Source: Urbifossiella limnaea
GTDB lineage: Bacteria > Planctomycetota > Planctomycetia > Gemmatales > Gemmataceae
Reading direction: 5' to 3'
Assembly (NCBI RefSeq): GCF_007747215.1
Contig: NZ_CP036273.1
Span: forward strand, 248,001-312,000
DNA length: 64,000 bases
Part shown: positions 3,830-61,499 of the stretch, piece by piece
Layout: each line of letters begins with the position of its first letter
Position numbering within the stretch: position 1 is the stretch's first letter
Program-made: the position numbers and the translations under genes
Notes under the pieces: generated by a model
Told to the model about the DNA's origin: nothing
The model's database searches: none
Seen by the model: only the letters and a program-made list of their open reading frames with translations

Positions 3830-3838
3830 GGAACCAGA

Positions 3839-3934
3839 GGGATGAGGGATGAGGGATGAGGGATGAAGCCGGAACCGGGGCCGAAGCCCGGGTTTTCCTT
3901 CATCCCTCATCCCTCATCCCTCATCCCTCATCCC
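3839..3934. repeat. Intergenic long hairpin built from GGGATGA units
   Basis: Four tandem 7-base GGGATGA units (3839-3868) face five inverted units (3898-3934) across a 29-base loop. It lies directly after the regulator stop codon and ends ten bases before the candidate SulP promoter. No U-tract follows, so it is not a standard intrinsic terminator. It is one of about eighteen long intergenic inverted repeats in the window. Confidence 0.85.
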
Positions 3935-15172: not shown

Positions 15173-15281
15173 TTTTTGACAGGATGAACTGGATGAAGCA
15201 GGATGGAAAACAAAGACAGAAATCAATTTAAATCGTGTCTTTGTTTTCCATCCTGCTTCATCCAGTTCGTCCTGTCAAAAA
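15173..15281. repeat. Family-1 long intergenic hairpin (copy A)
   Basis: 46-base arms (15173-15218 and 15236-15281) with one mismatch and a 17-base AT-rich loop containing ATTTAAAT. Each arm carries TTTTTGACAGGATGAACTGG then GAAGCAGGATGG. It lies between the sigma-WD40 stop and the gatB start. The base of the stem is T5/A5, so neither strand ends in a U-tract. Copies B and C are at 18491 and 21049. Confidence 0.95.
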
Positions 15282-15290
15282 CTGCCCTCG

Positions 15291-17123
15291 CTACCGGCCC
15301 GTCACGCCGGCCACGTCCCACACCTGCACCACGTTGTCGAGGGTGCCGGCCGCGAGCGTGCGGCCGTCGGGGGCGAACGACACCGACAGCACCCAGCCGC
15401 GACCGCCGAACTGTGGCACCGGCTCCCCGATCCGCGCCAGCGACCGGCCCGTCGCCGCGTCCCACAGGCGGATGGTGCCGTCGATCCCGCCGGACGCCAG
15501 CGTCCGGCCGTCCGGCGAGTACACCAGCGCGAACAGGTCGTCGGTGTGGCCGGACAGCTTCGCCCGCTCGGCGCCGGTGGCCACGTCGCGCAGGATCACG
15601 TCCTTCCGCTGGGTCGTGGCCAGCGTCTTGCCGTCGGGGGCGAACGCGACCGGGCCGACGCCGTGGTGGCCGACTACCGTCCCCGTCAGCTTGTGCGCCT
15701 GTTCCTTGCCGGTCGCCGCGTCCCAGAAGCGGAGCACGTCCGGCTTGATCGTCAACCGGCGGACGGTCGGGTCGGGCTGCGGCGTCGGCGGGTGGCTGAC
15801 CGTCACCAGCGTCTTGCCGTCCGGGCTGAACCGTACGCGGCTGACGGTCAGGTGCTGGTCGTCGGGCGGCGTGGCGCGGAGGAGCTTCCCCTCGTCGGTC
15901 AGGTCGTACAGCTTCACCGTCTGGTAGCCGCCGCACGCGATCCGCTTGGAGTCGGGGGAGAAGGCGAAGCACCCGCCGTCCGCGGGGTACGACCGGATCT
16001 TCGTCCCGGCCCGGTCCCACTGCAGCACCGCGAACTTGTCCTGCGGCTCCCGCCGGACGGCGGCGAGGGAGTTGGCGTCGGGCGCGTACTCGACGTGGTG
16101 GAACGTCCACTCGCGCGGCTCGCCGACGAGCGGGCGGCGGTCGGGGAGCTCGTCGGCGCCGAGCCGGTACAGTTCGCGGCCGGTCCTGGCGTCCCACACG
16201 CGCACGGTGCCGTCCCACGACGCCGACGCCAGCTGCGTGCCGTCCGGCGAGTAGGAGACGCCGGTCACGCGGTTGGCGTGGCCTTTCAACGTACGAACCA
16301 GCTTCGGCGCGGCAGGCGGCGCCGGCTGCGCGGCGGGCTGCGGCGCGGGCGGTTGCCCGTCGCTCGTCCCGACGGCGCCGGCCACCAGCAGGGCAGCGGC
16401 CGCAGCGACCAGCCCGCCCGCGGTGTACGTCGGCGTCATACTCGTCGCTCCTTTGGCGAGCCGGCGGACGACCGGCGACACGCCCGCCGGGTCCGCGACC
16501 CGGTGCAGTAGGGCGGGAGGAACGGCGTGGGCTGCGGCCGCAGTGCCGAGCGCGGCCAGCGCCGGGGCGACGCCGCGGCCGGCGAGGCGCGTCACGAGCC
16601 GCGCCTTCGCCCGCGCCACCTGCCCGGCCACGGCGCCCGGCGTGCGGCCGAGCCGGGCGGCGGCGTCGGCTTGGGTCAGTCCGTCGAGGACGCACAGGAC
16701 GAACGCCGCCCGGTCGGTCGCGGGCAGCGCCGCGACCTCGCGGTGAACGACGGCCATCGTGTCGGCCCAGTGGTCGGGCGCGGGTGAGGCTTCGGGCACC
16801 GCGGCTGCGCGCTCCCGGGCGCGCCGCCGCGCCGCCTGCCGCCGCGCCAAGAGCCCGACGCGTAGCGCCGCGCCGTGGAGCCACGCCGGCAGGGCCGCCG
16901 GGTCGCGGACGGTGGCGCGGTGCAGCGCCAGAAACGTGGCCTGGAAGGCGTCCTCGGCGTCGGCCTCGTGGAGCAGTTGCCGGCAGACGGCCCACACGAG
17001 CGGGCCGTGGCGCGCGACGAGCTCGGCGAACGCGGCGGGGTCGTCGCGGGCGGCGAGCAGCGCGGCGTCGCCGCGCGGGTCGGGGGCGACGCGGCGGGCG
17101 AAGGCGGCGAACGGGCGGGTCAC
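15291..17123 (-). CDS. ECF sigma factor fused to a membrane segment and WD40 repeats
   Basis: 610 residues from a GTG at 17123. Residues ~20-190 are an ECF sigma factor (GPLVWAVCRQLLHEADAEDA, region 4 GLTQADAAARLGRTPGAV). A hydrophobic segment follows near residue 230-250 (TAGGLVAAAAALLVAGAVG), a Pro/Ala linker, then about six WD40-like blades (for example GHANRVTGVSYSPDGTQLAS, GHTDDLFALVYSPDGRTLAS). Such ECF-WD40 fusions are described in planctomycetes; the WD40 part is thought to sense or scaffold outside or at the membrane, so sigma release must involve cleavage or conformational change (inference). It is divergent from the LRR gene, 77 bases apart. Confidence 0.9.
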   Translation of the reverse strand: MTRPFAAFARRVAPDPRGDAALLAARDDPAAFAELVARHGPLVWAVCRQLLHEADAEDAFQATFLALHRATVRDPAALPAWLHGAALRVGLLARRQAARRRARERAAAVPEASPAPDHWADTMAVVHREVAALPATDRAAFVLCVLDGLTQADAAARLGRTPGAVAGQVARAKARLVTRLAGRGVAPALAALGTAAAAHAVPPALLHRVADPAGVSPVVRRLAKGATSMTPTYTAGGLVAAAAALLVAGAVGTSDGQPPAPQPAAQPAPPAAPKLVRTLKGHANRVTGVSYSPDGTQLASASWDGTVRVWDARTGRELYRLGADELPDRRPLVGEPREWTFHHVEYAPDANSLAAVRREPQDKFAVLQWDRAGTKIRSYPADGGCFAFSPDSKRIACGGYQTVKLYDLTDEGKLLRATPPDDQHLTVSRVRFSPDGKTLVTVSHPPTPQPDPTVRRLTIKPDVLRFWDAATGKEQAHKLTGTVVGHHGVGPVAFAPDGKTLATTQRKDVILRDVATGAERAKLSGHTDDLFALVYSPDGRTLASGGIDGTIRLWDAATGRSLARIGEPVPQFGGRGWVLSVSFAPDGRTLAAGTLDNVVQVWDVAGVTGR

Positions 17124-17188
17124 GGCGGCCTCCGGGGCGGCGTTCGCAGTGTAGTTGCCGCGGCCGCCCCGGTTCTGCGCGGGTTGAG

Positions 17189-17194
17189 TATCCT
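17189..17194 (+). promoter_or_regulatory. Candidate -10 of a leaderless transcript (LRR gene)
   Basis: TATCCT ends exactly six bases before the ATG at 17201 and no Shine-Dalgarno is present. The context GAGTATCCTTTCCGCATG resembles those before 27525, 30217 and 54180. Confidence 0.4.
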
Positions 17195-17200
17195 TTCCGC

Positions 17201-18481
17201 ATGGACGACCACGCCGCGCTGCTCGCCGCCGTCGTCGACCGGCCCGACGACGACACCCCGCGGCTCGTCCTCGCCGACTACCTCGACGACCACGGCGACC
17301 CCGACCGTGCCGCGTTCGTCCGCGCGCAGGTGGAGCTCGCCCGCACCCCCGAGTGGGAGCCATTCGCCGTCGAGTGCCGGCACCGGCGCACGGAGTGGTC
17401 CGACTTCGGGAAGCCGTTCCGCGCCGTGCTGCCGGCGTTCCCGGACGGGTGCGGCGTCGAGTGGGCCGAGCCGCCGTTCCGCCGCGGGTTCGGCTGGCGC
17501 GTCCGCGTCGGCAACCTCCACGGCTGGGCGGGAGTCGCCCCCGAGCTGTTCCGCGCCGCACCGGTCGGCGCGCTCCACCTCCGCGCCGACACCACGCTCG
17601 ACGACTGGCGCGCGTTCGCCGCCGGCCCGTGGCTCGCGCGAATCCGCGAGGTGCATCTCGAAGCGGGAAGAAGCCCGGTCGAGCCGGTGCGGGCGCTCGC
17701 CGCCGCGGGCACGCTCACCGGCCTCGACTCGCTCCACGTCCACCACGCCGACATCCCCGGCATCGACTTCCTCGTCGCCGACGTGCTCGCCGGGCCGCTT
17801 GTGGCGAACCTGCGCGGCCTGTCGTTCCGCCTCAGTTCGCCGGCGTCGCTCGACGACCTCCTGGACGTACTCGCGGCGCACGCCGGGCGGTTCGAGAAGC
17901 TGGCGCTGCGGAAGATGTACCTGACCGGCGCGCAGGTCGGCCGCTGGGCCTCCGCCGGGCTGCACGGCCTGCACGGCCTGGACCTGAGCGACAACTACGT
18001 GTTCAGCCAGGACGGCGCCCGCGCCCTGGCCGACGCGCTGGCCGGCGGGTGGACCGGGCACACGCTCGGCCTGTCGCGCTGCGGCATCGCCGTCCCGGGG
18101 GTGCGGGCGCTGGCGGCGGCGCCGGGAATGGCGTCGGTACGGCGGCTGGACCTGAGCCGGAACGTGTTCGGCCCGACGGGGGTGCAGGTGCTGGCCGCGT
18201 CGCCGCACCTGGCGGGGCTGCGGATGCTGGACCTGCGCGACTGCGGGTTCGGCGACCAGGCCGTGCGCCGCCTGGTCCGCGGCACGTTCTGGCCGAACCT
18301 GACGGAACTCGACCTGCGCGGCAACCCGATCACCGACCGCGGCGCCGGCTACCTGATGGCGGCGCCGCCCGCGCCAGACCTGACGGCGCTGCTGGTGAGC
18401 GGCCGCCACCTGCGCGGCCCGGCCCGGGCGACGCTGGCGAAGCACTACGGGGGACGGGTGGTATTCGAGAATGACGAATGA
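17201..18481 (+). CDS. TIGR02996-domain leucine-rich repeat protein
   Basis: 426 residues. The N-terminus (MDDHAALLAAVVDRPDDDTP, then LVLADYLDDHGDPDRAAFVR) is the planctomycete TIGR02996 motif, which heads many LRR proteins in Gemmata-like genomes. From about residue 175 on there are leucine-rich repeats of the ribonuclease-inhibitor kind (LHGLDLSDNYV, VRRLDLSRNVFG, LRMLDLRDCGFG, LTELDLRGNPITD). Function is unknown; the repeats suggest protein binding. No signal peptide. A -10-like hexamer six bases before the ATG suggests a leaderless mRNA. The stop is ten bases from a family-1 hairpin. Confidence 0.88.
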   Translation: MDDHAALLAAVVDRPDDDTPRLVLADYLDDHGDPDRAAFVRAQVELARTPEWEPFAVECRHRRTEWSDFGKPFRAVLPAFPDGCGVEWAEPPFRRGFGWRVRVGNLHGWAGVAPELFRAAPVGALHLRADTTLDDWRAFAAGPWLARIREVHLEAGRSPVEPVRALAAAGTLTGLDSLHVHHADIPGIDFLVADVLAGPLVANLRGLSFRLSSPASLDDLLDVLAAHAGRFEKLALRKMYLTGAQVGRWASAGLHGLHGLDLSDNYVFSQDGARALADALAGGWTGHTLGLSRCGIAVPGVRALAAAPGMASVRRLDLSRNVFGPTGVQVLAASPHLAGLRMLDLRDCGFGDQAVRRLVRGTFWPNLTELDLRGNPITDRGAGYLMAAPPAPDLTALLVSGRHLRGPARATLAKHYGGRVVFENDE

Positions 18482-18490
18482 TCCGATCTA

Positions 18491-18599
18491 TTTTTGACGG
18501 GATGAACAGGAAGAACCAGGATGGGAGACAAAGACAAAATTTAAATTGATTTCTGTCTTTGCTTCCCATCCTGGTTCTTCCTGTTCATCCCGTCAAAAA
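18491..18599. repeat. Family-1 long intergenic hairpin (copy B, opposite orientation)
   Basis: 46-base arms (18491-18536, 18554-18599) with two adjacent mismatches; the loop is the reverse complement of the loops of copies A and C, so this copy is inverted. Arm-specific variants (GACGGG, GGAAGAACCAGG) are present in both arms. It lies between two convergent genes. Confidence 0.95.
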
Positions 18600-18604
18600 T
18601 GTCT

Positions 18605-20992
18605 TCAACTCCCCTCTGGCGCCTCTTCGGCGATTCGCAGGTACGTCTGCACCGCCTGCCGGAAGGTGCGCTCGGCCTCCTCGCGCTCCGCGGCCGCGAT
18701 CCCCGGGCCGCGCACCGCCCACAGCCGCTCGATCGTGCCGATACACCACTTCGCGCTCGCCCGGCTGACGCGGATGGGCCTGTCGCCCACCAGCACCGTC
18801 ACCGGGTTCGTGTGCAGCTGCGGGAACTGCCGCAGCGCCACCCAACTGCTCGCGGCCACGTCCACGTCGAACGCCACGTCGTGCGGCTTGCCGTCGGCCG
18901 GCACCTCCTTCGTCGCCACCACCTTGCCGTTCATCACCAGCTCGACCGTCCGCGTCGGGCCGGCCGGGGCCGCGCCGCCGACCGCGGTGCCGAGGGGCGT
19001 GTCGCCCGCGAACGCCACCGTCGCCTTCACCGCCGTCTTGCCCGGCGCCGCCAGCTTCACCGGCGTCGGCCCCGGTGACACCCCGTTGACACTGAACGCC
19101 AGCGCGTGGGCGTAGCCGTCCGAGACGTAGCTCTTGCCGTCGCGGATGCCGCGGCACCACTGGCCGTAGTCGACGTGATCCACCTTCCCGAGCTGCACGT
19201 ACACACGCCCCTGGCCGACGCGGCTGCCGGTGATGCACGGGAAGTCCGTCTCGCCGCTCACCTTCAGCGGGAAGCCGCAGTTCATGACGTGGTACCAGCA
19301 GTTCCACTCCGGCACCCGGGCCGTGTCCATCGCGCTGATGAAGTCGCACAGCCCCAGCGCGCTCGTCACGCAAATCTCCTGCGCGCCGATGCCGTTCATC
19401 TCGGGGATGACCAGGTTCGGCAGGTTCCCCTTCGTCCGCTGCGTGCTCTGTGCCAGCTCCACCTCCGTCACCTTGCCGTCGCCGTCGGCGTCGACCTTGG
19501 CGAACGCTTCGGGCAGCGGCCACCGCCCCGCCGCGGCCTGTTCCTTGGTGATGAAGCCGCGTGTCCCCTTGTCCAGTTCCACGAACAGCCGCCGCGTCGC
19601 GGCCGGGGCGTCGATGCCCAACCCGTTCGCGGAGTGGGCGTAGCCGGTGACGGCGCCCTGCTCCTTCGCCCAGCGCATCAGCGGCGTCGTCCACGTCGGC
19701 CAGCCGCGCAGCTTGCTGCCGCCGGAACCCGGGTACGTCTGGTCCTTCAGGTTCAGCAGGTTGACGTGGCCGAGCGCCTGCGACCCGAAGCCGCTCACCT
19801 CCACGTCGTACTTGATGACGGTGAACGGCTCGCTGAGCCGGTGCGGGCCGACCTCGAAGAACTGCCGCTGGTAGTCGTAGCACGGCCCCCACGTCAGGCA
19901 GCAGCCGACGTTCAGCCCCTCGCCCTTGACGTGCATGAACATGTCTTCCGGCAGCACCCCCTCGGCCGGGTTCGTGTAGTGGGCGCACCCCGCGGCGTGG
20001 ATGTGGTGGTCGCCGCTGTACCACCCCTGCGTCGCCGGGTTGATCCAGCGCTCCAGCTTCACCTCGAACGTGTTGTCGCGGCCGGCTTCGACCTTGATGC
20101 GCGCGGTCTTGAGTGCGTACTCGGGGCCGCGGCCGTACTCGACGGCGAACTCGCCCGGCGGCAGCAGCACGAACCCGCCGTCGGCGCGGTACACCTGGCG
20201 CTGGAAGAACAGGTCTGGCGCGAGCCGCTTCGGCTGCGGCGGGTAGACGCGGCCGCCGGCGTCGGTGAACGTGAACCGGCCGACGGTCGGCGTGCCGTCG
20301 AAGTCCTTGACGCCGAGCCGGACGCGCACCGCCGGCTTCACGTCGAACAGCACGGGCGCTTCGCCGCGGAAGCCGAGGTCTTGAGTCCCCTGCCCGATGT
20401 CGAAGCCGACGGTCGCCTCGCGCTTGCCGGCCTCGGTACTGTAGACGAGCAGGATCGCGTACTCGACGCGCAGCCCGCTGAGGTTCGTGGTCATCGGCGG
20501 CGCCGTGAACAGTTCCAGTTCGAGGAACCGCTTCACGATGGTGGGGTCGGCCTTCGGGTCGCGCTCCTGCCGGCCCTGGCCGCTGTACACCGGCCCGGCC
20601 TGCGGGCTCGTGGGCGCCAGCTTCTTCTTCACCGTGCTGTCGTTCACGACCTTCACGAGCACCGGCGTCCAGCCCGCCTGTTGAATCGTGGCGTCGGCCG
20701 GCCCGCGGGCGACCTTCACCCGCGCCTCGGGGTTGAGGTTCACGACGAACAGGACGTGCGGGTCGAGCGCCTTCTGTACGGCCACGGCGTCGCGCGCCGT
20801 GACGGCGGCGTCGAGCTGCTTGGCGACGGCCGGCGCGAGCGGCGCGCCGAGGAACTGGAGCGCCTTGCCGAGCCGCTCGGCGTTGGCGGCGAGCGGCTGG
20901 CCTTCGACATCGCTGACGGGCGGGGGCGGGTCGGCGGCGCGGGCGGCGGGCGCGAGCGCGCCGAGGACGAGGAGCGCGGCGAGGCGGGACAT
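18605..20992 (-). CDS. CehA/McbA-family metallohydrolase (PHP domain), secreted
   Basis: 795 residues. The ATG at 20992 has GGAGG six bases upstream and starts a signal peptide (MSRLAALLVLGALAPAARA). The PHP-type catalytic core begins at WYSGDHHIHAAGCAHY, the CehA/McbA signature with its metal-binding HxH, and continues through GHVNLLNL, GAVTGYAHS and the later TGSRVGQGRVYVQ region. A perfect EF-hand loop (D-A-D-G-D-G-K-V-T-E-V-E, around 19455-19490) sits inside the catalytic part. The family hydrolyses carbamate or phosphoester-like bonds (CehA cleaves carbaryl), but the physiological substrate is not known. The C-terminal ~180 residues are beta-rich. The stop lies five bases from hairpin copy B. 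Confidence 0.85.
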   Translation of the reverse strand: MSRLAALLVLGALAPAARAADPPPPVSDVEGQPLAANAERLGKALQFLGAPLAPAVAKQLDAAVTARDAVAVQKALDPHVLFVVNLNPEARVKVARGPADATIQQAGWTPVLVKVVNDSTVKKKLAPTSPQAGPVYSGQGRQERDPKADPTIVKRFLELELFTAPPMTTNLSGLRVEYAILLVYSTEAGKREATVGFDIGQGTQDLGFRGEAPVLFDVKPAVRVRLGVKDFDGTPTVGRFTFTDAGGRVYPPQPKRLAPDLFFQRQVYRADGGFVLLPPGEFAVEYGRGPEYALKTARIKVEAGRDNTFEVKLERWINPATQGWYSGDHHIHAAGCAHYTNPAEGVLPEDMFMHVKGEGLNVGCCLTWGPCYDYQRQFFEVGPHRLSEPFTVIKYDVEVSGFGSQALGHVNLLNLKDQTYPGSGGSKLRGWPTWTTPLMRWAKEQGAVTGYAHSANGLGIDAPAATRRLFVELDKGTRGFITKEQAAAGRWPLPEAFAKVDADGDGKVTEVELAQSTQRTKGNLPNLVIPEMNGIGAQEICVTSALGLCDFISAMDTARVPEWNCWYHVMNCGFPLKVSGETDFPCITGSRVGQGRVYVQLGKVDHVDYGQWCRGIRDGKSYVSDGYAHALAFSVNGVSPGPTPVKLAAPGKTAVKATVAFAGDTPLGTAVGGAAPAGPTRTVELVMNGKVVATKEVPADGKPHDVAFDVDVAASSWVALRQFPQLHTNPVTVLVGDRPIRVSRASAKWCIGTIERLWAVRGPGIAAAEREEAERTFRQAVQTYLRIAEEAPEGS

Positions 20993-21048
20993 GGGAACCC
21001 TCCGGGGAGTGCGGCCATCAGACCGCGCCGGAGGGGGGAACGCGAGCA

Positions 21049-21158
21049 TTTTTTGACAGGATGAACAGGACGAAGCAGGATGAAATCCAAAGACAAAATC
21101 AATTTAAATCTTGTCTTTGGTTTTCATCCTGCTTCGTCCTGTTCATCCTGTCAAAAAA
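21049..21158. repeat. Family-1 long intergenic hairpin (copy C)
   Basis: 48-base arms (21049-21096, 21111-21158) with one mismatch and a 14-base loop AATCAATTTAAATC. Arms carry GGATGAACAGGACGAAGCAGG, a variant shared by both arms but not by the other copies. It lies between the CehA-like gene's start and the stop of the VOC gene. Confidence 0.95.
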
Positions 21159-21167
21159 TTCCTTGAT

Positions 21168-22930: not shown

Positions 22931-22979
22931 CCCGCAGGTTGTCCAGGTTGCGGTGTGGCACCCGGTTCTCGTCGTGCGT

Positions 22980-23202
22980 GGTTAACCCCCTCACCCCGCG
23001 TGCTTCGCCGCGACCCTCTCCCCCGAGGGGAGAGGGTGGGACGGCCCCGCGCCCGTCACGGGCGGGCATCGACCCGCGGACGCAGTGGCGTGTTTCTCTG
23101 GCGTCGGCGAGTGGTTGCCCGCCCGTACTGGAGTCCGGGTGCGGCCGCCAGCCCCCCGGGGGAGAGGGTCGCGGCGAAGCACGCGGGGTGAGGGGGTTAA
23201 CC
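22980..23202. repeat. Large inverted repeat with 133-base spacer
   Basis: Perfect 45-base arms (22980-23024 and 23158-23202), GGTTAACCCCCTCACCCCGC outward, enclose 133 bases. This fills most of the 332-base gap between the small gene ending at 22930 and the one ending at 23263. The spacer starts with the hairpin CCCCCGAGGGG and has no convincing gene; its translated frames have no family resemblance. It differs from the other hairpins in its long loop, like a small non-autonomous mobile element, but no flanking target duplication was found. Confidence 0.85.
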
Positions 23203-23262
23203 GCGATTGATGGGGACCAGCAACCACGCACTCCGCGCCGACTACCTGCGGGCCGTAATGTA

Positions 23263-26522: not shown

Positions 26523-26816
26523 ATGGCGGGACCGGTGTTGGCGTTCGCCGCGGTCGAGGAACTGGTCGCGTTCGTGCACAAAACCCTGTGCGAGCAGGAC
26601 GCCCTCGACCCGGCCCAGACGCCGCTGTACCGCACGCCGCTGAAGCGCGGCGGGCGCGTCTGCGGGCTCATCTTCCACGTCGAGGGGCCGCGGCTGCTGC
26701 GCACGAGCGCCGTGTGGTCGGCCGACGACGGGCGGGTGCTCTTCTACGACTCGACCGGCACCCGGGCGCAAGAGGTGCGGCTGAGTGAATCGCCGGAGGT
26801 CAGCCGCGCGGCGTGA
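26523..26816 (+). CDS. Small conserved-looking protein of unknown function
   Basis: 97 residues starting after a GGGGGCGGG stretch. It has a helical N-terminus (VLAFAAVEELVAFVHKTLCE) and a beta-rich rest (VCGLIFHVEGPRLLRTSAV, DGRVLFYDSTG). No membrane segment or known motif. It is convergent with the redoxin gene, nine bases away. Confidence 0.6.
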   Translation: MAGPVLAFAAVEELVAFVHKTLCEQDALDPAQTPLYRTPLKRGGRVCGLIFHVEGPRLLRTSAVWSADDGRVLFYDSTGTRAQEVRLSESPEVSRAA

Positions 26817-26825
26817 GGGCAGGCC

Positions 26826-27446
26826 TCAGTCGTCCCGCTTCGGGTTGAACCGGATCGAGCACCCCGCGGCCGGGCTCGTCTCGGCCACCGGCGCCGCCTT
26901 CCCGGCCGCCAGCGCCGCCACGGCGTCCTCCAGGTAGCGCGCCTTCACCTCGCCGGTCGCCTTGTCGTCGAACGCGCCCATGTAGACCACCTTGCGGGCC
27001 TTGTCCAGCAGGAACACCTCGGGCGTGTTCTTCGCGCCGTACTTCCGGGCGACCTCCTGCGTCGGGTCGTAGAGGTACGCGAACGGGAAGCCCTTCTTCG
27101 CGGCCCGCTCCGTCATCGCCGGCAGGGCGTCGTCCTTGCCGGTGTTCACGTTGATCGCCACCACCGCGAGCGTGTCGGCGTGCTTCTTGGCGAGCGCCGC
27201 GAGGCGGCCCTCGTAGGCCACGGCGACGGGGCAGCTGTTGCACGTGAACACGACCACGACGGCGGACTTGTCCTTCAAGTCGGCGAGGGAGTGCGTTTTG
27301 CCGTCGGTGCCGGCGAGCTTCTCCCACGCGGGGGCAGCGCTGCCGACGTCCAGTACCTTGTTGAACTTGCCGGCGTGGGCGGGCGTGGTGGGGCCGGCGG
27401 CGACGGCGAGCGCGGCGGCGACGAACGCGGGGACGAAGCGGGTCAT
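26826..27446 (-). CDS. Secreted thioredoxin-like redoxin (AhpC/TSA-type)
   Basis: 206 residues, ATG preceded by AGGAGG. The N-terminus is a signal peptide (MTRFVPAFVAAALAVAAG). The thioredoxin fold contains the active site FTCNSCPVA (CxxC), AINVNTGKDD, and GAKNTPEVFLLDKA with the cis-Pro. Likely an extracytoplasmic disulfide reductant or redox partner. The C-terminus has a single Cys (AGCSIRFNPK), a conserved ending in similar planctomycete proteins. No partner reductase is nearby. Confidence 0.88.
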   Translation of the reverse strand: MTRFVPAFVAAALAVAAGPTTPAHAGKFNKVLDVGSAAPAWEKLAGTDGKTHSLADLKDKSAVVVVFTCNSCPVAVAYEGRLAALAKKHADTLAVVAINVNTGKDDALPAMTERAAKKGFPFAYLYDPTQEVARKYGAKNTPEVFLLDKARKVVYMGAFDDKATGEVKARYLEDAVAALAAGKAAPVAETSPAAGCSIRFNPKRDD

Positions 27447-32941: not shown

Positions 32942-33052
32942 GATGGCCACAAAAAGGCACGAAAAGACACAAAAAGGAAGGCTAAACCAAGCCTGAGTTC
33001 AGGGTTTGGTCGGCCTTCCTTTTGTGTCTTTTCGTGCCTTTTTGTGGCCATC
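32942..33052. repeat. Long intergenic hairpin with GGCCACAAAAAGGCACG arms
   Basis: 40/41-base arms (32942-32981 and 33012-33052) that differ by one A, with a 30-base centre. The right arm contains the stop codon of the small gene on the reverse strand. AT-richer than the surrounding genes. Confidence 0.92.
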
Positions 33053-34790: not shown

Positions 34791-34897
34791 GCCGCGTGAA
34801 GGGGCGAAGGGGTGAAGGGGTGAAGGGGTGACGAAAACCACCTGTTCGTCACCCCTTCACCCCTTCACCCCTTCACCCCTTCGCCCCTTCACGCGGC
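34791..34897. repeat. Long hairpin of GGGGTGAA units
   Basis: The left arm (34791-34836) has GCCGCGTGAAGGGGCGAAGG followed by three GGGGTGAA-type units; the right arm (34845-34897) has the complement with one extra unit, ending at ACGCGGC. The unit-based arms resemble those at 3839-3934. It lies directly upstream of the amidohydrolase gene. Confidence 0.85.
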
Positions 34898-37606: not shown

Positions 37607-37745
37607 AAGATTAACCACAGAGTCACAGAGGGCACAGAGGAAAGACAGAAGACCGAGACGGAACAGAGTTTGAAATCAACTCCTGTCTCCACTCCGCCTT
37701 TTTGTCTTCCCTCTGTGCCCTCTGTGACTCTGTGGTTAAATCTTT
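37607..37745. repeat. Long hairpin with CCACAGAGTCACAGAGGGCA arms
   Basis: Arms 37612-37647 and 37702-37738, nearly perfect over ~36 bases, outer ends extend to AAGATT/AATCTTT. Loop about 55 bases, AT-richer than the genes. Family of CACAGAG-unit hairpins. It sits in the gap before the cytidine deaminase gene. Confidence 0.9.
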
Positions 37746-38170: not shown

Positions 38171-39118
38171 TCACCCGTACCCGATCCCGCGCAGCAGCTC
38201 CGCCGTCAGCACGAACGGCGCCGCCGGGATCGCCCCCAGCCGGAAGCGCGGCAGCAGCTCCCGCGGCGTCGCCGGCCGCGGCTCGTCCAGCCACCCGCAC
38301 GACCACGCCAGCAGCCCCACCACCGCCTCGGGCGCCACGCCCGCGGCGCGCAGCGCCGACAGGCGCGTGTCGCCGTGCCGCTTCGCCAGCCGGCGGCCGT
38401 CGGGGCCGACCACCAGCGGCAGGTGCGCGAACGCCGGCGCGGCCCATCCCAGCGCCCGGTACAGCAGTAGCTGCCGCGGCGTCGAGGGCACCAGATCGTC
38501 CCCACGCACCACCTCGGTCACGCCGGCGTCGGCGTCGTCGGTCACGACCGCGAGCTGGTACGCCGGCGTGCCCGCCGCCTTCCACACCACGAAGTCGCCG
38601 CCGGCGGCGCGCAGATCGACCCGCGTGTGGCCGCGGTACAGGTCGTCGAACGGCGGCGAGTCGGCGACGCGGAACCGCCACGCGAACGGCACCGCCAACC
38701 CCGCGGCGGCGGCGGGGGTGCGGCCGGCGCACGTCCCCGGGTAGGTGGGCGGCTCGTGCTCGGCGTGCGGGGCGCTGGCCGCGGCGGCCACGTCGGAGCG
38801 GGTGCAGGTGCAGGGGTAGACGAGGTCGAGTTGCTTCAGCCGGTCGAGCGCCGCCTCGTAGAGCGGCAGCCGGCGCGTCTGCACGACGGGCTCGCCGTCC
38901 CAGTCGAGGCCGAGCCAGCGGAGGTCGTCCTGCGCCTGCTCGGCGGCCCCGGCCTTCACGCGCGGCGAGTCGATGTCCTCGATGCGGAGCAGCACGCGCC
39001 CGCCGGCGGCGCGGGCGCACAGCCACGCGGCGAGGTAGGTGCGGGCGTTCCCGAGGTGCTGCGCGCCCGTCGGCGACGGGGCCAGCCGCCCGACGGGCGG
39101 GAATGACGAATGACGAAT
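38171..39118 (-). CDS. gluQ: Glutamyl-Q tRNA(Asp) synthetase with a missing canonical start
   Basis: About 315 residues, GluQ/YadB type without an anticodon-binding domain. Visible: the class I motif GRLAPSPTGAQHLGN (HIGH equivalent), LLRIEDIDSPRVKAG, the zinc site YPCTCTRSD/YPGTCAGR, and the KMSKS-like LAKRHGDTRL. It would glutamylate queuosine-34 of tRNA(Asp). In frame, between the upstream stop (39173-39175) and the motif there is no ATG, GTG, TTG or CTG; ATT at 39118 would give an N-terminus of the usual length (8 residues before the motif). The 5' end coincides with a family-2 hairpin, so the start may have been overwritten by it. The 3' end is three bases from the cdd stop. Confidence 0.78.
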   Translation of the reverse strand: MRHSSFPPVGRLAPSPTGAQHLGNARTYLAAWLCARAAGGRVLLRIEDIDSPRVKAGAAEQAQDDLRWLGLDWDGEPVVQTRRLPLYEAALDRLKQLDLVYPCTCTRSDVAAAASAPHAEHEPPTYPGTCAGRTPAAAAGLAVPFAWRFRVADSPPFDDLYRGHTRVDLRAAGGDFVVWKAAGTPAYQLAVVTDDADAGVTEVVRGDDLVPSTPRQLLLYRALGWAAPAFAHLPLVVGPDGRRLAKRHGDTRLSALRAAGVAPEAVVGLLAWSCGWLDEPRPATPRELLPRFRLGAIPAAPFVLTAELLRGIGYG

Positions 39119-39191
39119 GACCCACCACTGACGAAGGAAGACGGCACCGTGTCTTTCTTCGTCAGTGGTGGGTCATTCGTCATTCGTCATT
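39102..39191. repeat. Family-2 intergenic hairpin at the gluQ start
   Basis: 41-base arms (39102-39142, 39151-39191) with one mismatch, loop of only eight bases (GGCACCGT). Arms read AATGACGAATGACGAATGAC then CCACCACTGACGAAG. It is between the gluQ 5' end and the kinase gene's 3' end; gluQ codons lie inside the left arm. Confidence 0.95.
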
Positions 39192-49916: not shown

Positions 49917-49998
49917 GGCGAGCCGGGAGCGTGAGCGACCGGAGTCCGACGCCACTCGCGCCGCGTCGGACTCCGGTCGCTCACGCTCCCGGCTCGCC
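49917..49998. repeat. Perfect 36-base-arm hairpin after dnaE
   Basis: Arms 49917-49952 and 49963-49998 are perfectly complementary with a 10-base loop (CACTCGCGCC). The arms are GC-rich (GGCGAGCCGGGAGCGTGAGC). It starts about 20 bases after the dnaE stop and ends 18 bases before the SDR start. No U-tract. Confidence 0.97.
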
Positions 49999-50016: not shown

Positions 50017-50799
50017 ATGACCCGCCCCCTGGCCCTGGTGACCGGCGCGAGCGCCGGGATCGGCAAGGAGATCGCCCGCGTCCTCGCCGCCGACCACGAC
50101 CTCGTCCTGTCCGCCCGCCGGGCCGACGAGCTCGCCGCCCTCGCCGCCGAGCTCGGCGGCACCAGCTGCACCGTCGTCCCCGCCGACCTCGCCGACCCCG
50201 CCGCGCCGCAGCTCCTCTTCGACGCCGTCGCCGCCGGCGGCCGGCCGCTCGACGTGCTGGTCAACAACGCCGGCTTCGGCGACTTCGGGTACTTCGCCAC
50301 GGCCGACCTGCCGAAGCTGCTCCGGATGGTGCAGGTGAACTGCACCGCGCTCACGGAGCTCACCCACCGCTTCCTGCCGGGCATGGTCGAGCGGAAGACC
50401 GGCCGGGTGCTGAACGTCGGCTCGGTGGCGGGCTTCCAGCCGGGGCCGCTGATGGCCGTGTACTACGCGACGAAGGCGTACGTGAACTCGCTGTCGCAGG
50501 CGCTGTCGAACGAGCTGGCCGGGACCGGCGTGACGGTGACGTGCCTGTGCCCGGGGCCGACGCGGACGGAGTTCGCGGCGGCGGCGGGGCGGCGGGAGGG
50601 GAAGTCGTTCAGCGTGGCGCAGCGGCTGACGGCGCGGGACGTGGCCGAGATCGGCGTGTCGGCGATGACGCGCGGCACGCCGGTGGTGGTGCCGGGGATG
50701 GGGAACAAGCTGCTGATCGCGGCGGAGCGGCTGCTGCCGCGCGGGGCCGTGGTGCGGGCGGTGCGGTGGATGCAGCAGAAGAGAATGCCTGAGGCGTAA
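50017..50799 (+). CDS. Short-chain dehydrogenase/reductase
   Basis: 260 residues with classical SDR motifs: TGASAGIG, LVNNAGFG, catalytic YYATKAY (Y-x3-K), and CPGPTRTEF after the sixth strand. NAD(P)-dependent oxidoreductase of unknown substrate, resembling DltE/YqjQ-like SDRs. The ATG at 50017 directly follows a hairpin. No operon partner on this strand. Confidence 0.93.
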   Translation: MTRPLALVTGASAGIGKEIARVLAADHDLVLSARRADELAALAAELGGTSCTVVPADLADPAAPQLLFDAVAAGGRPLDVLVNNAGFGDFGYFATADLPKLLRMVQVNCTALTELTHRFLPGMVERKTGRVLNVGSVAGFQPGPLMAVYYATKAYVNSLSQALSNELAGTGVTVTCLCPGPTRTEFAAAAGRREGKSFSVAQRLTARDVAEIGVSAMTRGTPVVVPGMGNKLLIAAERLLPRGAVVRAVRWMQQKRMPEA

Positions 50800-50804
50800 T
50801 TTGG

Positions 50805-50900
50805 AATTGGTCCGTTGAAATTTGGCTGACGAGCGGCTCAGCCCCGAGAAGTCGGTCCTGGGCCTGCCCCGCTCGTCAGCCAAATTACAACGGACCAATT
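50805..50900. repeat. Long hairpin with AATTGGTCCGTTG arms
   Basis: 32-base arms (50805-50836, 50869-50900), one mismatch, loop of 32 bases. Arms read AATTGGTCCGTTG then AATTTGGCTGACGAGCGG. It is between the SDR stop and the convergent HEAT gene, 6 bases after the SDR stop. Confidence 0.93.
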
Positions 50901-50912
50901 ACAACGGACGTC

Positions 50913-51623
50913 TCACGCCATCGCCACCATCACGCCGGCGCCGACCGGCGCCGTGGTGTCCATCGGGCTCGGGGTGTGCGTCAGCGCCTCGCCAGCCCGG
51001 CGGCGGACCTCGGCGTCGTCGTCCTCGACCACCAGCCGCAGCGCCGCCGCCACCTGCGGGTCGTCCGGGGCCATCTGACCCAACAGGGTCGCACAGCGGC
51101 CGCGCAGCTCGGGGTCGATGTGGCCGAGCCCCTGCACCACGGCGCCAAGCGCCGGCCGGCCCACCTTCCGCAGCGACGCCGCGGCTACGACGCGGGTGCG
51201 CGTCTCGGGCTCGCCGAGCATCGTCACCAGGCCGGGGGCCGCGGCCTGCGCCGCGGGGCCGAGGCGGCCGGACGTGCCGGCGGCGTCGCGGCGGACGCTC
51301 GGGTCCGGGTCGCGGAGGCAGTTCACCAGCGCCGGCAGCGCGGCCAGCGCGTGCGTGCCGAAGTCGCCGAGCGCCCGCGCCGCCCGCCGCCGCACCCGGG
51401 CGTACGGGTCCTTCAGCGCCGTCGTCAGCGCCGCCACCCGCTTCGACGGCGACACGGCCAGCTCGGCGAGCGCCACCACGGCCAGCTCGCGGACTTGGCC
51501 GTTGGGGTTCTTCTGGGCGTCGGTCAGCACGTCGAGCGCGATGCCGGTCTGCGCGTCGGGGAGCCCGTGCACCAGGATGGTGAACACGAGCTTGTGCATG
51601 ACCTGCGGCGTGAGCGGTTCCAT
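50913..51623 (-). CDS. HEAT-repeat protein
   Basis: 236 residues composed of helical HEAT-type repeats, e.g. VRRRAARALGDFGTHALAAL, VRRDAAGTSGRLGPAAQAAA, TRVVAAASLRKVGRPALGAV and VRRRAGEALTHTP. Such Ala-rich repeat proteins serve as scaffolds for protein binding. No catalytic domain and no signal peptide. Convergent with the SDR gene across a hairpin. Substrate or partner unknown. Confidence 0.88.
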   Translation of the reverse strand: MEPLTPQVMHKLVFTILVHGLPDAQTGIALDVLTDAQKNPNGQVRELAVVALAELAVSPSKRVAALTTALKDPYARVRRRAARALGDFGTHALAALPALVNCLRDPDPSVRRDAAGTSGRLGPAAQAAAPGLVTMLGEPETRTRVVAAASLRKVGRPALGAVVQGLGHIDPELRGRCATLLGQMAPDDPQVAAALRLVVEDDDAEVRRRAGEALTHTPSPMDTTAPVGAGVMVAMA

Positions 51624-53646: not shown

Positions 53647-53688
53647 GGGGGAACCTCGGGTGACGATGACAGGATAGCAGAAGCCGAG

Positions 53689-53757
53689 CGGCCCGCGTGA
53701 GCGGGCTGTTCCGGTGCGGCCGAGAGGCGCTTCGGACCAGCCCGCTCACGCGGGCCG
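53689..53757. repeat. GC-rich hairpin with CGGCCCGCGTGAGCGGGCTG arms
   Basis: 20-base arms (53689-53708, 53738-53757) pair almost perfectly around a 29-base loop. The right arm overlaps the 3' end of the next reverse-strand gene (stop at 53746). Confidence 0.85.
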
Positions 53758-54117
53758 CTCGCCGGCCACGAGGCGTGCCGTCCGCCGCACCGCCAGGCGC
53801 GGGTGAGCGGCCGCTGCGGCGCGCACGTCGGCGGGGCAGCCGCGCTGGTACAGCGCCGCGCACATCAGCGCCGTGCCGAGGTTCGCGTCGGGGTCGGCGG
53901 CGCCGAGCGCGAACAGGGTGCGGCACTCGTCCGCCGTGAGGTGGGCGCGCTCCTCGGCCCAGTCGCGGGCGGCGGCCCACCGCCACGCCCGCGCCGACAC
54001 GTCCGGCGCGGCCGCGGCGTAGCGGGTGAAGTCGGCCGCGGACTCGGCGCTCACGAGGCCGGCGGCGTACCAGCTGGGCGGAAACACGGCGCCCCCACGG
54101 TCAGTGCACCACAGCAT
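53746..54117 (-). CDS. Protein of unknown function
   Basis: 123 residues from the ATG at 54117 (MLWCTDRGGAVFPPSWYAAG). Predicted helical, Ala/Arg-rich (ARAWRWAAARDWAEERAHLT, CRTLFALGAADPDANLGTAL) with two Cys-containing helices (LMCAALYQRGCPADV). I do not recognise it; the pattern of short helices suggests an ankyrin- or TPR-like fragment. Its 3' end lies in a hairpin arm. An upstream GTG-like extension would run into the palindrome at 54118-54167. Confidence 0.6.
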   Translation of the reverse strand: MLWCTDRGGAVFPPSWYAAGLVSAESAADFTRYAAAAPDVSARAWRWAAARDWAEERAHLTADECRTLFALGAADPDANLGTALMCAALYQRGCPADVRAAAAAHPRLAVRRTARLVAGERPA

Positions 54118-56467: not shown

Positions 56468-56531
56468 GTTAGGCCGGGGCGCAAGCCCCGTCCGGTATCT
56501 GAGCCCGACGGGGCTTGCGCCCCGGCCTAAC
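56468..56531. repeat. Family-3 hairpin (copy A)
   Basis: 25-base perfect arms (56468-56492, 56507-56531), GTTAGGCCGGGGCGCAAGCC outward, loop of 14 bases. The 25-base arms are identical to those at 61396-61460; loops differ. It lies between the HscC operon's last gene and the J-like gene. Confidence 0.95.
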
Positions 56532-61348: not shown

Positions 61349-61395
61349 GCGCGACCGTCAACGGGCGCGGCGCGCCGACAGACTCCGGCAAACGC

Positions 61396-61460
61396 GTTAG
61401 GCCGGGGCGCAAGCCCCGTCGGGATTGAGACACCCGACGGGGCTTGCGCCCCGGCCTAAC
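61396..61460. repeat. Family-3 hairpin (copy B)
   Basis: 28-base perfect arms (61396-61423, 61433-61460), 9-base loop. The outer 25 bases of each arm match copy A at 56468. Copies A and B lie outside opposite ends of the HscC operon. Confidence 0.95.
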
Positions 61461-61499
61461 GGCTGGCCAAACTCCACAGGCATACCCGCGGGGCGGCCG

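Follow-up and report, generated by a model that had tools for sequence, protein, structure and literature searches.

The window analyzed in this work is a stretch of 64,000 nucleotides, bases 248001-312000 of a 7.80-Mb single-contig genome, and it harbors three hairpins, A, B and C, each constituted by 46-bp inverted arms (positions are those of the window, and features are given without strand). In hairpin A, the left arm (15173..15218) is separated by a loop of sequence GAAATCAATTTAAATCG (15219..15235) from the right arm (15236..15281), to which it is 98% complementary; a minus-strand ORF on the right has its stop codon (15291) 9 nt beyond the end of this right arm. Hairpin B (18490..18600) is flanked by a pair of convergent genes, whose stop codons lie 9 and 5 nt away, and its loop is reversed with respect to that of A. 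Hairpin C (21048..21159) also has a minus-strand ORF on its right, the stop codon of which (21168) is found ~10 nt from the right end of the repeat.

A previous sequence-only reading of this DNA had described three such hairpins, and they were recovered in the same places (A 15173-15281, B 18491-18599, C 21050-21157); for copy C the hairpin is present, but its start needed adjustment, as TTTTTGAC begins at 21050 and the repeat itself spans 21048-21159. That reading had counted one or two mismatches between the arms of a copy and more between copies, in agreement with the identities over 46 nt (45/46 in A, 44/46 in B and 45/46 in C) and with the fact that every arm of A, B and C is nearest to its own partner among the 22 paired arms of the genome. 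The changes it had regarded as private to one copy and present in both arms were found as AACTGGATG in A, GACGGG plus GGAAGAACC in B and GGACGAAGC in C, but GACGGG is not private, being one form of an A/G dimorphism common to several copies. The inversion of B relative to A was likewise apparent in its loop, which fits the A loop better when reversed (score 29 vs 18) and is inverted relative to the loops of A, C and another copy of this genome (c203k).

The arm pattern was matched six times in the window, with 0.00 matches expected in shuffles, which rules out a chance origin. The predicted folds of A, B, C and other long, well-paired copies are very stable (-81 to -103 kcal/mol), and a search of the window against Rfam gave 0 matches reaching the gathering score. 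Other inverted repeats were observed in the same stretch, namely one with 76-nt arms, 84% complementary and 121 nt apart (22955-23227), and one with 59-nt arms, 83% complementary, in which one arm holds two ATTACAACGGAC-like direct units (50787-50918). GC-rich hairpin families (GAGCGGCCCGCGTGAGCGGGC; GGCGAGCCGGGAGCGTGAGCGACCGGAGTC; GTTAGGCCGGGGCGCAAGCCCC), also repeated throughout the genome, are located at 53685-53761, 49917-49998, 61395-61461 and 56468-56531.

Copies in this genome and elsewhere, and their position after stop codons

A genome-wide search with the arm pattern, tolerating 3 mismatches, yielded 23 arm matches, corresponding to 11 inverted pairs (22 arms) and one single arm; these copies are referred to as family 1, or the ACAGGAT family, and include a near-identical pair (c203k and c7378k). 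Copies were also found in four of the five congeners searched, with 39 matches on each strand in one of them (G001) and none in another (G003), and most of the bacterial family, as searched, held no copies of the arm pattern. At least 118 stretches, from many phyla, contain the exact arm 20-mer; by our estimate, chance alone would account for ~2 occurrences in 257 Gb. A partner was recognizable within 1.6 kb for 83 of 131 arm matches and, judging from this search, many arms in other phyla are unpaired or decayed. By eye, the ACAGGAT hairpin of some loci in other phyla (L048, L072, L098, L033) is nested inside arms made of other unit repeats, e.g., CACAAAG or CACAGAG, as if one element had entered the loop of another.

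Family-1 copies occur after genes: among 55 classifiable copies, 23 are in convergent, 31 in tandem and one in divergent context, and this last assignment (L153, in G001) is probably an error of the ORF caller, because the empty site in this genome shows two plus-strand genes. In a census of all long hairpins covering 864 kb, the median distance to the facing stop codon was 8 nt and 98 of the 137 distances fell in the range of 0-40 nt; the background density of hairpins was about one per 6 kb. The same positions may be occupied by other hairpins in relatives. In G001 a GC-rich hairpin stands at the site of A, where G002 has a CGCAAAG hairpin; a different GC-rich hairpin is found at the site of C in G005, and two family-1 sites of G001 (L145 and L171) match other hairpin families in this genome. 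Three more G001 sites (L153, L165 and L174) match short hairpin-free sequence here; the counterpart of L165 lies in the window (26810..26830), between two convergent stop codons. No clear target-site duplication was seen at these three empty sites, whose flanks have diverged. The refilling of slots fits a useful 3' hairpin slot or a preferred insertion site, either one.

Changes shared by the two arms

The arms of each copy change together. Arms that differ independently within single copies do exist, in 4 of the 11 copies of this genome (128k, 609k, 1099k and 3390k, whose arms have no more than 67-80% identity over 46 nt, the inner part differing most), but coupling over 56 copies was far above shuffles. 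These 56 copies, from five genomes, were included when both arms had at most 3 mismatches from the consensus and lay within 700 bp of each other, arm-to-arm match not being a selection criterion. At an A/G dimorphic R-site, the arms agree in 53 of the 56 copies (mean 33 and maximum 47 in 5000 within-genome shuffles). Furthermore, 14 non-consensus changes are common to both arms (shuffle mean 4.0, maximum 9), many paired changes being private to a single copy, and in 26 of the 40 copies that could be scored the inter-unit spacer is the same in both arms (mean 4.6 and maximum 14 in shuffles). One-sided changes amounted to 53 in the 56 copies, some of them owing to shifted units.

The stem also proved to covary in an alignment of 32 copies, which were chosen for length and general integrity and thus lean toward well-paired copies: 19 of 36 pairs showed two-sided changes, a value reached in none of 500 shuffles. 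Two-sided cells in this alignment numbered 101; shuffles gave 28.4 and slid controls 6-23. RNAalifold independently reported 17 pairs with two-sided changes. Two-sided transversions (GC to CG, UA to AU, AU to CG) were frequent, and one-sided G.U cells were few. The mismatch load varies among copies, many being perfect and others displaying up to 12 mismatches.

The same behavior is displayed by orthologous copies, several hairpins standing behind the same genes in this genome and in G001. Between c6200k and its counterpart L173 we counted six paired and 0 one-sided differences. Similarly, six paired changes separate c3007k from L152, together with two one-sided ones at the outer edge, and one of the paired changes is located at the stem foot (TTTTTGGAC vs TTTTTGAC). 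Because they have in common a spacer, AACGA, that is absent from every other tabulated copy, c3007k and L152 look inherited by descent. For these orthologous comparisons, rough estimates under independence are ~1e-6 for the paired changes and 1e-5 for the absent one-sided changes. Other orthologous pairs are less clean, with paired and one-sided changes numbering 2 and 5 (c203k/L157), 2 and 6 (B/L156), 3 and 6 (c1099k/L164) and 3 and 13 (L149/L188), and these many one-sided changes indicate that any correction is incomplete. In these comparisons the flanking DNA of this genome and G001 is ~16-20% different; single events are not resolvable and double changes not demonstrably simultaneous. Regarding loop orientation at orthologous sites, scores for the inverted and direct alignments were equal or nearly so. 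The paired changes at orthologous hairpins support the sequence-only reading, which saw either selection for pairing or correction of one arm by the other as necessary.

Related hairpins that enclose a gene

Some family-1 copies have a long loop, which at orthologous sites of this genome, G001 and G004 holds a GxxExxY gene (PF13366, E 3.5e-42; with a match to TIGR04256); ACAGGAT arms flank these genes, and the arm sequences differ between species. We searched the 160 bp to the left and right of genes of this and other families for inverted repeats, using the best-scoring family members as loci. PF13366 genes were found inside inverted repeats at 35 of 55 loci (20/28 in planctomycete relatives and 15/27 in other phyla), and genes of the S23/IVP family (PF05635) at 37 of 54 (18/27 and 19/27, respectively), the genomes of other phyla having been picked for holding the ACAGGAT 20-mer, so that their rate is not an unbiased estimate. 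PIN genes (PF01850), taken as a control in planctomycete relatives only, gave 0 of 25, and swapping of flanks gave means of 1.35/47 (PF13366) and 0.5/47 (PF05635) vs 32/47 observed for each family. For the internal period of the arms, the best score fell at 8-10 nt in 28 of the 35 PF13366 cases; among the PF05635 cases it fell at 7 or 14 nt in 29 of 37.

The arm families that flank such genes in this genome are those of bare hairpins in the window, namely ACAGGAT (L234), CACAAAA (L348), GAGGGAT (L341), GTGAAGGG (L269) and AATGACG (L280); the element family occurs with and without a gene. In the window, bare hairpins include one of the CACAAAA family (32942..33052), whose arms flank a GxxExxY gene at L348, and one of the CACAGAG family (37611..37739), which flanks GxxExxY genes in other genomes. 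Bare counterparts of arms flanking PF05635 genes in this genome are those with 7-nt GAGGGAT units (3837..3929), with GTGAAGGG units (34791..34897) and with 7-nt AATGACG units (39102..39191), the last family reading GTCATTC at L280. One family-1 copy (c1099k; L009:1500-1896, genome 1099956-1100351) contains a loop ORF of ~110 codons with no Pfam match, and its orthologues in G001 and G005 are without this ORF.

Among 29 GxxExxY proteins, G24, E27, Y30 and Q90 are invariant, and D66, E76, K78 and Y94 are conserved at 90% or more. E27, D66, E76-x-K78 and Q90xxxY94 are the residues expected of a RecB/Cas4-like PD-(D/E)XK nuclease, and GxxExxY is a predicted nuclease of this kind. Comparison with the PDB by sequence and fold, the latter using a structure model of modest quality (mean pLDDT 73.6) built from five sequences, gave no significant match (by fold, none with E ≤ 0.001). 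A phage origin was also considered and set aside, just 3 GxxExxY relatives having been confirmed in viral contigs.

Origin of the matched arms and resemblance to known systems

Selection on RNA pairing is the competing account that best survives, and we regard it as unlikely, though to be taken seriously: the hairpins would be mRNA 3' ends (exonuclease protection or Rho-linked), with the stem kept by compensatory substitutions. The closeness of copies to stop codons, their almost exclusively convergent and tandem contexts, the stability of the predicted folds, the occurrence of other hairpin families in the same slots and the reality of the covariation are all in line with it. However, under selection on RNA pairing, one-sided changes should produce G.U in the transcribed strand more often than A.C, and no such preference was observed: one-sided changes read in the transcribed sense comprised 29 G.U, 26 A.C and 34 transversions in tandem contexts, and 23 G.U, 20 A.C and 28 transversions in the census of all long hairpins, which overlaps the tandem set. 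Two-sided transversions and the coexistence of many perfect copies with others bearing up to 12 mismatches also speak against it, and the six paired and no one-sided changes of c6200k and L173 would mean repeated crossing of a fitness valley.

A source whose arms were already matched might have supplied each hairpin as a unit, by transposition or ectopic conversion, so that the hairpin would be young or replaced whole; copying of this kind is in our view improbable. Near-identical pairs such as c203k and c7378k, the hairpin-free sites in the sister genome and the strongly uneven copy number among congeners, from none to 39 arm matches per strand, are compatible with such copying. Conversely, c3007k and L152 have a private spacer in common at the same locus and yet differ by six paired changes, and the many paired changes private to one copy demand that the source of each has been lost. 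Paired changes having arisen at the same locus in a congener, duplication of pre-matched copies is therefore not the whole story. Ordinary intrinsic transcription terminators, which the location after stop codons might suggest, are scarcely credible and were rejected, as the T-run is 5' and the A-run 3' of the stem on both strands, and the terminator scan called 2 sites in 8 kb, neither of them here, with 3.4 in shuffles.

We favor recopying of the arms at the DNA level, by template switching, over selection on RNA pairing, because of the lack of a G.U preference, the two-sided transversions and the fact that c3007k has a paired change at the foot of its stem. Selection may act as well, since the position after stop codons and the reappearance of other hairpin families in the same slots suggest that hairpins may be useful in such places. 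Template switching has been documented to homogenize the arms of inverted repeats and to invert spacers (PMC8604942). The full explanation, to which we assign a moderate probability, is that A, B and C represent the ORF-less form of a family of hairpin elements, whose arms would be matched by template-switch recopying. The element would be formed by two inverted arms of short purine-rich units (ACAGGATGA-like); between them would lie a short loop or, for some copies, a small gene that is often GxxExxY. The hairpin would form in single-stranded DNA during replication, and the polymerase would switch template and recopy one arm from the other, as in the known correction of quasipalindromes. A single event could give both arms several changes at a time, or transversions or indels, and could also invert the loop; between events the arms would drift apart, giving rise to a mixture of perfect and partly decayed copies. 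As a hypothesis only, the gene in the loop might contribute to spread or correction. Covariation is commonly taken to prove functional RNA structure, and in this large natural family strong covariation may stem from recopying of DNA arms; the comparison of G.U with A.C by strand constitutes a simple discriminator of RNA selection and DNA recopying.

Quasipalindrome correction, described in bacteria and yeast (PMC8604942), resembles our case in its homogenized arms, inverted spacer and clustered multi-base changes, whereas here the process is deduced from the sequences of a dispersed natural family with arms of 40-50 bp. Several other known systems share features with these hairpins. The intervening sequences (IVSs) of 23S rRNA consist of a terminal-inverted-repeat stem with a small ORF (S23/IVP, PF05635) in the loop, replace the small loop of a pre-existing hairpin, and have long been suspected of mobility (PMC4990558). 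The 7-nt-unit hairpin families of this genome similarly carry PF05635 in the loop. Unlike IVSs, our hairpins are located between protein genes, have degenerate unit-repeat arms and are mostly ORF-less; moreover, the ACAGGAT family pairs with PF13366 instead of PF05635, its copies being bare or carrying PF13366 or an unassigned ORF. The two 23S genes of this genome, ~2.77 kb long, are found elsewhere than the hairpin copies.

The REP/REPIN and RAYT systems also combine many short extragenic palindromes with a related form that has a gene between inverted copies, but by inspection no GTAG or CGTC tag was seen in our arms, which start with TTTTTGAC, the stems are longer, and the associated protein belongs to a PD-(D/E)XK-type family and not to the HUH tyrosine transposases. 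Like MITEs, the hairpins are non-autonomous-looking inverted repeats with empty sites in relatives, but no target-site duplication was evident at three empty sites, with diverged flanks. The TAACTGA heptamers of Beggiatoaceae are likewise abundant intergenic 7-nt units, direct almost throughout with one inverted case, and PF05635-type genes are unmentioned in the searched text on these repeats (PMC4679880). In the open-access literature, which leaves most subscription papers and preprints outside and thus makes for a weak absence, we found neither the arm motif as a bacterial repeat nor a link of GxxExxY or IVP to such repeats, nor a description of intergenic, ORF-less, unit-repeat IVS-like hairpins or of a GxxExxY counterpart.

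We tentatively propose, as a joint statement that we hold to be somewhat less than evenly probable, a widespread and apparently undescribed class of hairpins in which inverted unit-repeat arms flank a small gene, the protein family tracking the unit length (GxxExxY with 8-10-nt units and the four-helix-bundle IVP with 7-nt units); gene-free derivatives would lie by hundreds after stop codons, kept palindromic by recopying, and the 23S rRNA IVSs would be the rRNA-dwelling branch. Two common families of unknown role, GxxExxY and S23/IVP, would gain a testable context, that of inverted unit repeats with a unit length of their own across phyla, and the link between repeat and protein could help explain the origin of the 23S rRNA IVSs. 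A further repeated element of ~190-220 bp, with outer arms like CGGTTTTCAGGCCGAAGGCCTGACAGCCCTCAGCCCAGGGCAA, was observed at six sampled loci of this genome (L322, L316, L342, L327, L318 and L325), and its build is unlike that of the unit-repeat hairpins.
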